DNA of 38,540 bases, taken from a virus. How positions within the stretch are numbered: the first letter of the stretch is position 1; each line of letters starts with the position of its first letter. The stretch is taken from positions 1 to 38,540 of the IMG/VR virus record IMGVR_UViG_3300005518_000028. One strand, 5' to 3'. This document shows, piece after piece, positions 5,662 to 10,179 of the stretch. A model generated the notes under the pieces. That model worked only from the letters and a program-made list of their open reading frames with translations. It ran no database searches and was not told the origin of the DNA. A program made the position numbers and the translations under genes.

Positions 5662-5888
5662 TAGTTTGCATCTCCCATGGGGATAAACTTCATGAGGGTT
5701 AGGTCTTTTTCCATGTGTTTAGCTAAACCGCGCAACAAGTCAGGAAGCATCATAGAGACCTCTGGCTTCACGCTACTGACACAACCGTTGCCTTTGTCGC
5801 CACCGAGTATAATCAAGACAACACCATCAGCCTTTAAGCGTTCGAATAACTCTTTACACTCTGCGTCATATCTGCTCTCTCCAAGCAT
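5661..5888 (-). CDS. hypothetical protein, 75 residues
   Basis: The ATG at 5888 follows a GGAG site by 8 nt, inside the 3' end of the preceding gene. The product has an N-terminal helix ('CKELFERLKADGV'), a buried strand followed by a glycine turn ('VVLIILGGDKGNG'), and a C-terminal helix ('LPDLLRGLAKHMEKDL'). This resembles a small alpha/beta fold. I know similar short phage proteins with an 'LGGxxGxG' stretch, all of unknown function. Confidence 0.6.
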   Translation of the reverse strand: MLGESRYDAECKELFERLKADGVVLIILGGDKGNGCVSSVKPEVSMMLPDLLRGLAKHMEKDLTLMKFIPMGDAN

Positions 5889-6048
5889 TTACGTTCTCCA
5901 TTAATAAAAGATTGCTTCTCATTTCTTCATAGGCGGCGGCTTTACCTTCATAAAATCCACTTTTCCTTGCGAATTTACACGCCAGAAAAAGGAAATATAT
6001 GGATGCCACATTGCAACACGCTGTTATGATAGACCAAGTCATGCTCAT
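5866..6048 (-). CDS. 60-residue single-pass membrane protein
   Basis: The ATG at 6048 shares a base with the TAA of the AAA ATPase gene (TAATG), so translation is coupled. One hydrophobic segment at about residues 5-23 ('IITACCNVASIYFLFLAC') is followed by a basic, helical tail ('YEGKAAAYEEMRSNLL'). Topology is probably N-out/C-in. Tight coupling to the AAA gene suggests the two products may be made in fixed ratio, so a membrane partner of the AAA-VWA pair is possible. No homologue is recognised. Confidence 0.6.
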   Translation of the reverse strand: MSMTWSIITACCNVASIYFLFLACKFARKSGFYEGKAAAYEEMRSNLLLMENVNAWREQI

Positions 6049-7109
6049 TAGACGGCAGCCTCCAGCATAGGTTGATACTGCTTGCGAAATCCGGAAGTCG
6101 GCGCTTGATGCAAGTGACCTTTCTTGCGAAGCCTCATGGACGAAACTTCCGTTTCGACACACATGCGAAGCGTCTTCCCTAAGAGGTCTTCCTCTTCCTT
6201 AACGATAGACCGCTTTAGCGCCTTATCCATGGCCATGCGCAGTTCTGAAAACGACAAGCCGTGAGAAAGCGTTACCGCATCTTCGCGTTCTTCTTTTTTA
6301 ACGCGCTTCTTTAGGCGGGCTTGAATGGCCAGGTCCCTTTGCGTAGCGTCAGGCATTTTGAATTCGACGACCTTGTCAAACCGTCGCCACATGGCAGGGT
6401 CAATCTTGTCTCCCATGTTGGTAGCCCCAATAAAGATCGAATCCCCACGAAAGGCTTCCAGGCGCTCTAGAAGGATCGTCAGAGCCTTATCCTTAAAAGT
6501 GTCCCCTTTGCCTCGGGAGAGTGCAAACATCTCAATTTCGTCCATTAGGACGACTTTAGGGTTATTTTTAAGGTTAATCTCGTCGCATTTCATGCGGAGG
6601 AAGTTTAACCGTTCACCAATCGTACAGGCACACGCCGAAGATGCACTTCCGCAATGCCGACAAGATGGCGAATTGTGGTAGGAATTGGTTATAGTTTTAA
6701 TCTCTTCCTTCCATTCCTTAATCTGGCGCTCGTCGTCCGGGGTAACGCCTTGCAACTCGTCCCAGAGTTTTCCCATGACGCGCTCTTCGTAACCGTAAAG
6801 AGAGTGCACCATGCGGTCAGACCGTACCTGGTAGAACTCCATCCCCAACTCATCTGCCAGGTAACGGGACATAATGGTTTTGCCCGTTCCTGGGGGACCG
6901 GTGAAAAGGAGCCTATTGGCGTTCTTAAGATTTTCTTTTTTCAACTCGGCACGGCAGTCGTACTCGAGTTTAATGTCTTCGAAATCTTCTTTTAGCCATT
7001 CGGGGATGATTAAATATTCCTTTTGCAAGGGATCGCTTGGCCGCTCTAAAATAGAGCCACCCATGGCATCGTTGATTAAGTCTCGCGGTCTTTCTTCTTC
7101 GCTCTGCAT
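6048..7109 (-). CDS. AAA ATPase (classical AAA type) with a four-Cys insert
   Basis: The 353-residue product has one AAA module. Walker A is GPPGTGKT at 71-78, Walker B VVLMDE at 186-191, sensor 1 Asn231 in 'IGATN', then 'DPAMWRRFD' with Arg242/Arg243 as arginine fingers, the second region of homology of Cdc48/FtsH-type AAA proteins. Between Walker A and B is an insert with Cys150, Cys153, Cys160 and Cys162 (CxxC...CxC), a probable zinc knuckle. 'GLSFSEL' near 284-290 fits the lid region. There is no substrate-recognition domain, so specificity must come from partners. The next gene upstream in the operon encodes a VWA protein, a pairing known from MoxR-type chaperone and metal-insertion systems. 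A strong AAAGGAG site precedes the ATG. Confidence 0.85.
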   Translation of the reverse strand: MQSEEERPRDLINDAMGGSILERPSDPLQKEYLIIPEWLKEDFEDIKLEYDCRAELKKENLKNANRLLFTGPPGTGKTIMSRYLADELGMEFYQVRSDRMVHSLYGYEERVMGKLWDELQGVTPDDERQIKEWKEEIKTITNSYHNSPSCRHCGSASSACACTIGERLNFLRMKCDEINLKNNPKVVLMDEIEMFALSRGKGDTFKDKALTILLERLEAFRGDSIFIGATNMGDKIDPAMWRRFDKVVEFKMPDATQRDLAIQARLKKRVKKEEREDAVTLSHGLSFSELRMAMDKALKRSIVKEEEDLLGKTLRMCVETEVSSMRLRKKGHLHQAPTSGFRKQYQPMLEAAV

Positions 7110-7131
7110 CTCTTTCTCTCTCCTTTAGTGT

Positions 7132-7827
7132 TTAAATGATCCCCATAATTCTTGGGTCTGTGTTGTTCGGACCCAAGGTAAAGCCTATGTCTGTCGTATG
7201 TTGCCGCACCGGCGAATGGTGACCAATCGGAATCTCATCTAATCCTTGTTTTATGTTCGCCATATTACCAAGTGTTTCACCCAAGCCGCGCCATGCAAAA
7301 TAGGTCGTAAGCATCCGATAGGGATGGCGCCTTTTAGCAGATGGGCCAATGTTTTTTAAATCTTCACAAGTAAATTGACGTGAAGTTTGGTTACTCCCAA
7401 AATCAGTTTGCAAAAAGAAATGGGTTTGTGAATTAGGCGCCTCATTTTGCATTTTTAAAATAGCCGAACCCAACGCGTCCCAAGTGCTTTCAGTGCCGCG
7501 ATTGTTGTATTGCGATAAAGCGTAAATGCTTCGAAACCTTGGCACAGAAACGACTGGCGTTCGCCAGTAAACGTATTTGACGTTATAGTCGTAAACGATG
7601 AGCGAAAACCTTGCCATTGGGGTTTTTTGTTTAACGTAAGAAACGCACGCATTCACCCAGTTGCAAAGATCCCCTTGGACGCCGTCCATGGAACCCGAGA
7701 CGTCACAGATAAAGACGACGTCGATATCTTGCTCGATTGTCCCCTTGGGGGATTTTGGCTTTGTTTTAGGATTCATCTTAACCGGCTTTTTTTCTGGCCT
7801 TTTGTGCGATCTGACAAGGATGGGCAT
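7132..7827 (-). CDS. von Willebrand factor A (VWA) domain protein, AAA partner
   Basis: The 231-residue protein has a basic N-terminal tail of 30 residues, then a VWA domain with a full MIDAS metal site: Asp42-x-Ser44-x-Ser46 ('CDVSGSMDG'), a Thr in 'RGTEST' (112 or 115) and Asp142 in 'LQTDFGS'. VWA domains bind protein partners through this metal. The roughly 90 residues after 142 are not typical VWA and contain 'TYFAWRGLGETLGNMA'. Its start is coupled to the upstream gene (TAATG), and the AAA gene follows 22 nt downstream. In RavA-ViaA and NorQ-NorD systems such pairs remodel or load metals into a target; here the target is unknown, perhaps one of the adjacent small proteins. Confidence 0.85.
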   Translation of the reverse strand: MPILVRSHKRPEKKPVKMNPKTKPKSPKGTIEQDIDVVFICDVSGSMDGVQGDLCNWVNACVSYVKQKTPMARFSLIVYDYNVKYVYWRTPVVSVPRFRSIYALSQYNNRGTESTWDALGSAILKMQNEAPNSQTHFFLQTDFGSNQTSRQFTCEDLKNIGPSAKRRHPYRMLTTYFAWRGLGETLGNMANIKQGLDEIPIGHHSPVRQHTTDIGFTLGPNNTDPRIMGII

Positions 7828-8162
7828 TAGATGCCTATCTTTAGCGATGCCAAGACCTTTATCGAGTCCATAATTTTATCAATCTCTAGGACGGCTTTAT
7901 TGCCGTGCTCTCTCGTTTCGTCTTGGGTTGCCATGACTAGCGCCCGATGACGCAACTCTTGCGTTAACTTAATGTAAGTGCGCAAGATCTCAAGCCAGAC
8001 GGCTTGGAATACGGGTTCCCCTTTATACCGCACCAAAAAGTGAACATCGGCTTTTAACTCTTCGACTTTTTCCTGCGACATTTGGTGCGCCGCGATGACG
8101 GTCTTTTCCTGCTTATTTTCTGCATAGGCTTTAACCGCCTCTAAAATATCTTCTAAGGTCAT
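7827..8162 (-). CDS. hypothetical helical protein upstream of VWA gene
   Basis: The 111-residue product is almost fully helical ('LEDILEAVKAYAENKQEK', 'VWLEILRTYIKLTQELRH', 'DKIMDSIKVLASL'). Its start overlaps the previous stop (ATGA) and its stop overlaps the VWA start (TAATG), so it is translationally locked to the AAA-VWA pair. It could be a substrate or adaptor for that pair. No family is recognised. Confidence 0.65.
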   Translation of the reverse strand: MTLEDILEAVKAYAENKQEKTVIAAHQMSQEKVEELKADVHFLVRYKGEPVFQAVWLEILRTYIKLTQELRHRALVMATQDETREHGNKAVLEIDKIMDSIKVLASLKIGI

Positions 8163-8509
8163 ACCTGCGCACCTTTCCCGTTCTTCTTGGATTTTAAAGC
8201 GAAGGCTTTTACGTGTTTCAAATCAAGCGCGTTATTTCTTTTATTGTGCTTTGAATAAAGTGGCCTATCGAGCCTATTTTTAGGAGCGAATTGCTCAACG
8301 TCATCGGCTATCTTATGAAGATCGGGGTTGTTCTCTAGCAAAAAGTCTTCAAGGACACTCCGCATTGTTGATTCCGTAGCGCGTGCCATGCGTGCAATGG
8401 GTTCCATTACTTGCCGCGATAGGTTAATCCCGACGGTGACGTCTGAACTTTTACTCTCAGCCGTTTTGGCAAGCATCTTCATGCGGTCTTGGAATGAGGC
8501 AGATTTCAT
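8159..8509 (-). CDS. hypothetical protein, 116 residues, basic C-terminus
   Basis: A strong AAGGAG site lies 9 nt before the ATG. The central segment ('DVTVGINLSRQVMEPIARMARATESTMRSVLEDFLLE', described in two halves) reads like a short strand followed by two helices, the order of a ribbon-helix-helix DNA-binding domain. The C-terminal 40 residues are Lys/Arg/Asn-rich. A DNA-binding regulator is a possible reading but is not certain. It is coupled to the next gene by an ATGA overlap. Confidence 0.6.
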   Translation of the reverse strand: MKSASFQDRMKMLAKTAESKSSDVTVGINLSRQVMEPIARMARATESTMRSVLEDFLLENNPDLHKIADDVEQFAPKNRLDRPLYSKHNKRNNALDLKHVKAFALKSKKNGKGAQV

Positions 8510-8795: not shown

Positions 8796-9317
8796 TTAAT
8801 GTGTGAGTTCGTTAAACGGATTAGCCATGCGGCCACCCATGGAAGTAACCGTCTCTCCAAAACCAGGCGATTCCGTTAAGGTGGAAATCTTGCCTTTATC
8901 GTTTCTCTCGATGAAGTAATAAAAAGCCTTAGTCTCTTGCCGCGTCATGGCGTGAATGCAGATGCACTCTTTGCGCTCTGGATGGTACTCTAGACTTTCG
9001 TAGGTTTCATAGAGTTCGTTGACGTGCTTATCGAGATCACCATGGATGTCTTCGTCTCTCGTCATTAAAAGCCAGCTCTCAGCAATAAAGATGACCCCAA
9101 GACCGTTAAGTCTTTTGGTCAGTTCTTTAATAGCTGCCTGCGCTATGTCCTTAGAGGGGTAGGTCTCTAGACTGACGCAGCCGGCATTCATTTTTTCATC
9201 GAAGATCATGGCAAACATGGGCGGGCCTTTGCCTTCCGCTAAGACAACCCTTTTGGTATTTTCGACAAACTCTTTTGCAAACTTAAAGAAGTTTTCTTTG
9301 GTAAACGTTTTATCCAT
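8796..9317 (-). CDS. hypothetical protein, 173 residues
   Basis: The start overlaps the end of the RecT-like gene by 8 nt. The protein is alpha/beta, with an N-terminal helix ('FFKFAKEFVENTK'), strands ('PPMFAMIFDEK', 'GVIFIAESWLLM') and an acidic helix ('DLDKHVNELYETYESLEY'). The layout recalls phage proteins found beside single-strand annealing genes, but I see no catalytic motif. A recombination accessory is a guess from position only. Confidence 0.6.
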   Translation of the reverse strand: MDKTFTKENFFKFAKEFVENTKRVVLAEGKGPPMFAMIFDEKMNAGCVSLETYPSKDIAQAAIKELTKRLNGLGVIFIAESWLLMTRDEDIHGDLDKHVNELYETYESLEYHPERKECICIHAMTRQETKAFYYFIERNDKGKISTLTESPGFGETVTSMGGRMANPFNELTH

Positions 9318-10179
9318 TGTAGGGCGGCTCTTCGATTGAAACTGACGGAATGCCTTCTTTTAACCATTTTTCAGCGGTCTTTAAGCACTCCTCTAACTTA
9401 TCCATCTGGCGATCAGTCTTAGCCAAATCAATGTGTTCTAATTTGGCATTATCTTTGCCGATTAAATCCTTAAAGTACTCCGTCTCGGTCCACATACCAT
9501 TTGAGGCATGTAGGGCGCTTAAGACTTCTTTTAAGCGGTCTTTAATCTCTTGGTGTTGCAGGGAACGCTCTAAGTCTGGAGAGGTAACCGGTAGCGGTTC
9601 TTTTGTGGCGGAGGTTGGTGCGGGAACCTCGATCACCTCTCCAGTTTGTTCATTTAGGACTTCAGCCTTTTTTGGCGTAACGTTTTTAATCTCATCTGAA
9701 AAGTCAGAGACAATCTCAGGCGGATAAAGCCCGGCCATGCCAGGACACACTGCGTCACACCCCTCCGAGACGCAACGTGCCCTAAGCATGGCTGCCGGGT
9801 ATTTGTTCCAGTTTCCTTTGCCTAAGAGGTCAGCCTGGCGTGCCTTGTCCATATCCCAAACGACCCTAAGGGTTCCCCCTTGCGGGTGGGAGAACGTGGC
9901 GTCACAAACCTCGTCGTTACTCTCATGCCATTCTATTTTGCCTCCGGCAGAGATAAAGTCCCGCTGAATGGCTTTAGCACTCTTAGAAGGCTTGTTGTTT
10001 ATAATGTGGTAATCGAGTGCAGCTAAGGCTGGATGACGTCCTTCGGCTTGGGCAATTAAGCACAAGGCTAGAGCTTGCTCTTGGGTCTTAATGCCAAAGA
10101 GATTAGACTTGGCGATGGCATGGGCCATGATCTGCATGTCAGTCACAGCGAAGTCTTTCTTTACGATTGCATCAGACAT
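9310..10179 (-). CDS. RecT-like single-strand annealing protein
   Basis: The 289-residue protein has a core at residues 5-160 that I recognise from many phages: 'MAHAIAKSNLFG', 'QALALCLIAQAEGRHP', 'LDYHIINNKPSKSAKA', 'GGKIEWHE', 'ATFSHPQGGTLRV', 'NWNKYPAAMLRARCVSEG', 'GLYPPEIVSDF'. This family is annotated RecT-like; it anneals complementary strands during replication and recombination. The C-terminal 120 residues are variable, Pro/Thr-rich then helical, a likely protein-interaction tail. No exonuclease partner gene is adjacent; the PD-(D/E)XK gene at 2127 lies 7 kb away. It is preceded by AAGGAG at a rather long 16 nt. Confidence 0.75.
   Translation of the reverse strand: MSDAIVKKDFAVTDMQIMAHAIAKSNLFGIKTQEQALALCLIAQAEGRHPALAALDYHIINNKPSKSAKAIQRDFISAGGKIEWHESNDEVCDATFSHPQGGTLRVVWDMDKARQADLLGKGNWNKYPAAMLRARCVSEGCDAVCPGMAGLYPPEIVSDFSDEIKNVTPKKAEVLNEQTGEVIEVPAPTSATKEPLPVTSPDLERSLQHQEIKDRLKEVLSALHASNGMWTETEYFKDLIGKDNAKLEHIDLAKTDRQMDKLEECLKTAEKWLKEGIPSVSIEEPPYNG

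Follow-up and report, generated by a model that had tools for sequence, protein, structure and literature searches.

An orphan classical AAA ATPase gene beside a VWA-domain gene in a small tailed phage: a tentative motor–adaptor pair

Results

The locus and its gene block

The window, that is, the whole stretch of DNA analysed here, comprises all 38,540 bases of an IMG/VR virus record. Its content is that of a small tailed phage, with structural genes for a Terminase_6N-type terminase, a portal, an SU10-type adaptor and S74 and M15 proteins. A minus-strand block running leftwards from ~11.8 kb encodes an HTH regulator, a RecT-like protein, small unassigned genes, a VWA-domain protein, an AAA ATPase and more small genes (Table 1). 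A sequence-only reading had described this region as an early cassette holding an AAA–VWA pair close to recombination genes. The open reading frames lie where it placed them, all on the minus strand, and a recombination gene (RecT-like) is indeed nearby; “early” is a deduction from gene order, and a promoter search yielded no signal exceeding chance.

A near-DNA search of phages with the window returned 0 matches. The nearest relatives found were three short viral contigs (L316, L317 and L318), with portal proteins 35–39% and terminases ~31% identical to those of the window, and the closest named relative by structural genes was Silvanigrella phage CP017838 (portal 28%). The window's early-region genes all went undetected in the three short contigs, and neither the AAA nor the VWA gene was found in CP017838.

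Table 1 Features of the AAA–VWA region and the basis of their assignment.
Feature	Positions	Strand	Basis and remarks
60-aa protein, one hydrophobic (probable transmembrane) segment	5866-6048	minus	Sequence; TAATG-coupled to AAA gene
Single-domain classical-clade AAA ATPase, 353 aa	6048-7109	minus	Pfam AAA; IetA-like best matches; model; Foldseek; tree
VWA–AAA intergenic gap, 22 nt	7110-7131	minus	Sequence; carries Shine-Dalgarno aaaggagagag for AAA gene
VWA-domain protein, 231 aa	7132-7827	minus	Pfam VWA; phrog_7371; AlphaFold model; motif columns
111-aa protein, no assigned family	7827-8162	minus	TAATG-coupled to VWA gene
116-aa protein, own Shine-Dalgarno	8159-8509	minus	ATGA overlap with 111-aa gene
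RecT-like ssDNA annealing protein	9310-10179	minus	phrog_561 7.1e-13; upstream in same block as the pair

The genes follow the order 116-aa gene, ATGA, 111-aa gene, TAATG, VWA gene, 22 nt with a Shine-Dalgarno sequence, AAA gene, TAATG, 60-aa membrane ORF. The overlaps had been taken to lock the small genes and the pair together, a membrane protein included. They do join the flanking small ORFs to the pair members, among them the membrane ORF to the AAA gene, but they do not join VWA to AAA, which are separated by the gap with the Shine-Dalgarno sequence of the AAA gene. Abutting or overlapping junctions are ordinary in this genome (16 of 26 on the plus strand, 6 of 18 on the minus strand), so the overlaps carry little specific information. 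For two genes of the 19-gene minus-strand block, adjacency by chance is expected in 18 of 171 possible pairs, or ~10%.

The membrane ORF is likely to start at 6048 rather than 6162, and its product matched no family. Homologues of the 111-aa and 116-aa proteins, whose conserved pairing with the AAA and VWA genes had been suggested as a check, were absent from all phage records searched. Residues ~23–60 of the 116-aa protein (VTVGINLSRQVMEPIARMARATESTMRSVLEDFL) resemble, by eye, a ribbon-helix-helix DNA-binding motif, a likeness that drew no support from any HMM.

An orphan AAA ATPase of the classical clade

The AAA protein matched PF00004 at 2.2e-22 (80.3 bits, threshold 21.2), with Walker A (GPPGTGKT), Walker B (VVLMDE), sensor 1 (N231) and a pore-loop motif, L104-Y105-G106. 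In the SRH, RRF at 242–244 is invariant across 30 relatives (R242/R243). The Walker motifs are thus as complete as had been claimed, whereas, of the two arginine-finger positions of a classical SRH, just one can be recognised clearly, the residue at 246 being a lysine. A four-cysteine insert had also been reported, and it is there: the region ~124–181 carries a CxxC...CxC pattern, CRHCGSASSACAC, which was seen in no other of 74 aligned homologues. In the predicted structure (mean pLDDT 84.3), a classical AAA module bears a two-helix hairpin (124–145 and 158–181) that follows helix 2 and precedes the Walker-B strand; the cysteines lie at its low-confidence tip. The top Foldseek matches of this model were p97, PAN, 26S proteasomal Rpt and FtsHi.

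IetA-like models ranked first among families (phrog_3757, 5.5e-44; PADLOC IetA, 6.6e-36; NCBIfam IteA, 104.7 bits, below the required 510), above CDC48 (57 bits), FtsH_fam (52 bits, cut-off 600) and PAN. As proof of kinship with IetA, phrog_3757 was dropped, as it gives cellular FtsH 161–177 bits and the window AAA 152. In a tree that included FtsH and further cellular AAAs, the protein fell on the IetA/“RRF” side of a split with 93/94 support, on a long orphan branch (2.24) outside every starred subgroup. Another homologue tree agrees, and the trees leave it outside the S8-linked group. The Pfam match begins at residue 67, with ~60 residues before the module, as against 124–137 in S8-adjacent IetA-like AAAs, and an HMM search of the window for S8 proteases found none.

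Four established identities were rejected: MoxR (AAA_5 only at 3e-3, no AAA_3, and a helical insert after helix 2 in the model), CobS (not of the AAA_5/CbbQ_C type), FtsH (52 bits against 600, with both the HExxH protease domain and the transmembrane N-terminus absent from the 353 aa) and bona fide IetA (105 bits against 510, no S8 protease). The protein shares with IetA and phrog_3757 phage AAAs a single classical domain, a similar length, the SRH motif DPAxWRRFD, the best family scores and a phage origin; it differs in its missing S8 partner, a score far under the cut-off, a shorter N-terminus, the unique Cys-tipped hairpin and the orphan branch. With FtsH, Cdc48 and PAN it has the classical module and the Foldseek matches in common, but it lacks an HExxH protease, an N-domain and a second AAA domain, reads RRF rather than RPGRF in the SRH, and is split from FtsH in the tree.

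Pfam, family scores, model, Foldseek and tree all agree with the previous description of this AAA as classical and not MoxR-like. “Cdc48/FtsH-like” was roughly right, although the families that come closest are those of IetA-like phage AAAs, and the SRH has WRRF. The protein is best regarded as an orphan within the classical AAA clade, with phage IetA-like ATPases as its nearest kin, and its orphan status and Cys-tipped hairpin are its most distinctive features. With its short N-terminus, no protease domain of its own and no S8 gene anywhere in the window, the protein probably depends on a partner.

A bare VWA domain

In the VWA protein, a single VWA domain stands between a basic N-terminal tail of ~30 aa and a disordered C-terminal tail of ~40 aa. 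It scored 3e-4 against Pfam PF00092 (21.5 bits, just under the curated cut-off of 23.8) and 6.5e-11 against phrog_7371. The full MIDAS site ascribed to it stands in part: DxSGS (D42, S44, S46) and the third-motif D142 are preserved, but Glu113 occupies the column in which 40 of 40 relatives have Thr, and the TDG motif reads TDFG. With T112 one residue earlier, a one-residue local misalignment may possibly account for the glutamate. A Glu also serves in the MIDAS of integrin beta-I domains, which leaves metal binding by the window protein plausible.

The AlphaFold model (pLDDT 71.8) has a VWA fold and a disordered C-terminal tail. In the PDB it matched integrin I domains and ArnAB, with the VWA domain of NorD in its complex with NorQ ranking lower; a PDB sequence search returned none. 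Like phrog_7371-type stand-alone proteins, it has one VWA domain with RG...DA.G and TD.G..S motifs, from which it departs by the Glu in the MIDAS Thr column, a one-residue insertion after TD and the extra basic tail. It is a bare domain of the common phage and bacterial stand-alone type. VWA matches occurred in only 3 of 399 Pseudomonadota genomes.

Conservation of the pair

All relatives compared for conservation of the pair had less than ~30% identity, near relatives perhaps being missing from collections or unsampled. Single-sequence IMG/VR scans with AAA, VWA and RecT gave one weak relative or none. In a first AAA set of 80 IMG/VR loci and 6 phage loci, more than half had an S8 protease, nearly always adjoining in IetAS-like fashion, and in 22 a GapR-like gene adjoined the AAA or lay close to it; the window's VWA family was present in none. 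A second AAA scan covered 80 loci, partly overlapping the first set and including ~20 weak, clamp-loader-type matches, and revealed no adjacent VWA of the window family.

Two MIDAS-motif proteins were seen in the second scan, and both loci were judged to differ from the window pair and set aside. L309:2-2601, a T4-like viral contig, has a CobST-like pair, a long VWA protein with an AAA_5/CbbQ_C ATPase immediately after it, and the pair lies upstream of a gene resembling those of clamp loaders. In the viral contig L293:2-3511, the C-terminal part of an FtsH is followed 0.9 kb downstream by a protein that by eye appears TROVE-like and ends in a VWA with DVSGSM, an FtsH-linked and unrelated VWA.

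Whole records gave a similar picture. The window VWA family occurred in 0 of 50 AAA records, in a search that had no positive control; the HMM from the same alignment detects cellular VWA loci. AAA matches, mostly weak or partial, were found in 10 of 53 whole VWA records, none of them beside the VWA gene. A single AAA, FtsH-like and 3 kb away, was found around 80 cellular VWA loci, and 80 IMG/VR loci of RecT relatives (1.0 Mb) contained no VWA and one weak AAA. No MoxR gene was found beside the window pair. Rare co-occurrence of the two genes in relatives had been named as an outcome that would refute the proposed pair, and it is what was seen in all reachable relatives, every one of them distant. 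These sequence comparisons do not support a conserved AAA–VWA system: they refute a widespread one, but not a system confined to this phage group.

Discussion

AAA ATPases and VWA proteins form an established motor–cochaperone pairing, described by a chaperone–cochaperone model; the helix-2 insert defines the MoxR clade, and in FtsH-containing ternary systems a classical AAA is added to a MoxR–vWA pair (PMC7159879). Phage AAA–VWA pairs as such are already known. cobST pairs are found widely among tailed viruses (PMC8651126), MoxR–vWA is present in jumbo phages of group 2.2 and, as p618/p892 of ATV, is reported as required for tail assembly (PMC7824862), and the haloviruses Hardycor1 and HVTV-1 have an AAA–VWA arrangement (PMC7911831). 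The window resembles the MoxR–VWA pairs (RavA–ViaA, NorQ–NorD, CbbQ–CbbO, ATV p618–p892 and those of jumbo phages) in having an AAA beside a MIDAS-type VWA on the same strand. It differs in that its AAA is classical with no helix-2 insert, its VWA is a bare domain and the pair is not conserved in the relatives compared. Phage CobS and CobT likewise adjoin each other in tailed phages, but CobS is AAA_5/CbbQ-like and the VWA partner of the CobT kind is a long protein (472 aa in L309).

The reading that we tentatively favour is of an AAA motor and a VWA adaptor that together form an accessory protein-remodelling machine, private to this phage group. The classical AAA would assemble as a hexamer and thread or pull substrates through its central pore, with L104-Y105-G106 as the pore-loop motif. 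The VWA protein would contact the AAA as its substrate-binding adaptor and hold a phage or host target through a metal site on its top face, a Glu-type MIDAS, and ATP hydrolysis would change or release that target. The Cys-tipped hairpin may bind zinc and act as a docking arm for adaptor or substrate. An AAA with no N-domain or protease probably requires a separate targeting protein, for which the adjoining VWA protein is the natural candidate.

Most of the working residues are kept (Walker A and B, sensor 1, the SRH Arg, DxSGS and the MIDAS Asp), and the two genes stand in the same operon-like block, VWA then AAA on one strand, 22 nt apart. The short N-terminus of the AAA, with neither a protease domain nor an S8 gene in the window, the match of the VWA model to NorD among other VWA structures, and the precedents above (PMC7159879, PMC7824862, PMC7911831) point the same way. 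Against this, no reachable relative keeps the pair, known VWA partners are helix-2-insert (MoxR/CobS) AAAs, which the window AAA is not, and adjacency has its ~10% chance expectation. Most VWA homologues also lie in records with no such AAA at all, so this type of VWA can work alone. A joint AAA–VWA function is plausible; disassembly of a host complex or loading of a phage enzyme, the roles previously put forward, would be a guess.

It is rather unlikely that the locus represents a new motor–adaptor combination, in which a VWA cochaperone works with a classical-clade, IetA-like AAA instead of a MoxR/helix-2-insert one and a zinc-tipped hairpin serves as the docking arm. Should the pair be real, the use of VWA adaptors extends beyond motors of the MoxR type, and a self-contained remodeller is encoded by a small phage; should it not, phage AAA–VWA adjacency should be judged by conservation and not by domain names alone.

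Because conservation of the pair is lacking, it is nearly as likely as the motor–adaptor reading that these are two independent accessory genes, neighbours by chance: a stand-alone phage VWA scaffold or adaptor, like most VWA homologues, and an orphan AAA acting with another partner to remodel a separate phage or host target. The failure of the window VWA family to appear in AAA records, the few and never adjoining AAA matches in VWA records, and the lone distant FtsH-like AAA among cellular VWA loci all favour independence, as do the chance of neighbourhood once both genes are in the block and overlaps that occur genome-wide. However, functional links between AAA and VWA proteins exist across all of life, partners tend to be grouped in compact phage operons, and the relatives compared are all distant, so that separation in close relatives is unseen.

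It is considerably less probable that the pair descends from IetAS and serves in superinfection exclusion or anti-phage defence, with the VWA protein in place of the S8 protease IetS. IetA is the top defence family of the AAA in both PADLOC and NCBIfam, and most phage relatives of the AAA adjoin an S8 protease; yet the score is far under the IetA cut-off, no S8 protease is present, phrog_3757 is not IetA-specific and the trees leave the protein outside the S8-linked group. No description of the IetAS mechanism was found in the open-access literature searched. It is very improbable that the two proteins act in the manner of phage CobST, as a metal chelatase-like or cofactor-loading pair. CobST pairs are widely distributed among tailed viruses (PMC8651126), L309 happened to contain one, and the Cys insert could bind metal, but that insert sits on the AAA and not on the VWA, the AAA is not AAA_5/CbbQ_C, and the VWA protein, at only 231 aa, is without a CobT-type N-terminal half.

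Other AAA loci in viral contigs

IetAS-like pairs of an AAA and an S8 protease are frequent in phage and prophage contigs (L004-L007 and many of L016-L091), including Peduoviridae phage phiT5282H. In ~20 phage loci, a GapR-like DNA-binding protein is encoded directly upstream of a classical IetA-like AAA, as a conserved two-gene unit. The gene lies just upstream of the AAA in L003, L013, L014, L021, L023, L028, L040, L046, L048, L050, L055, L056, L061, L062, L064, L065, L073, L083 and L085, and near it in L019 and L026. All six GapR-like proteins tested matched PF10073, and in Rhodobacter phage RcMeacham the protein is fused to FtsK_gamma repeats.
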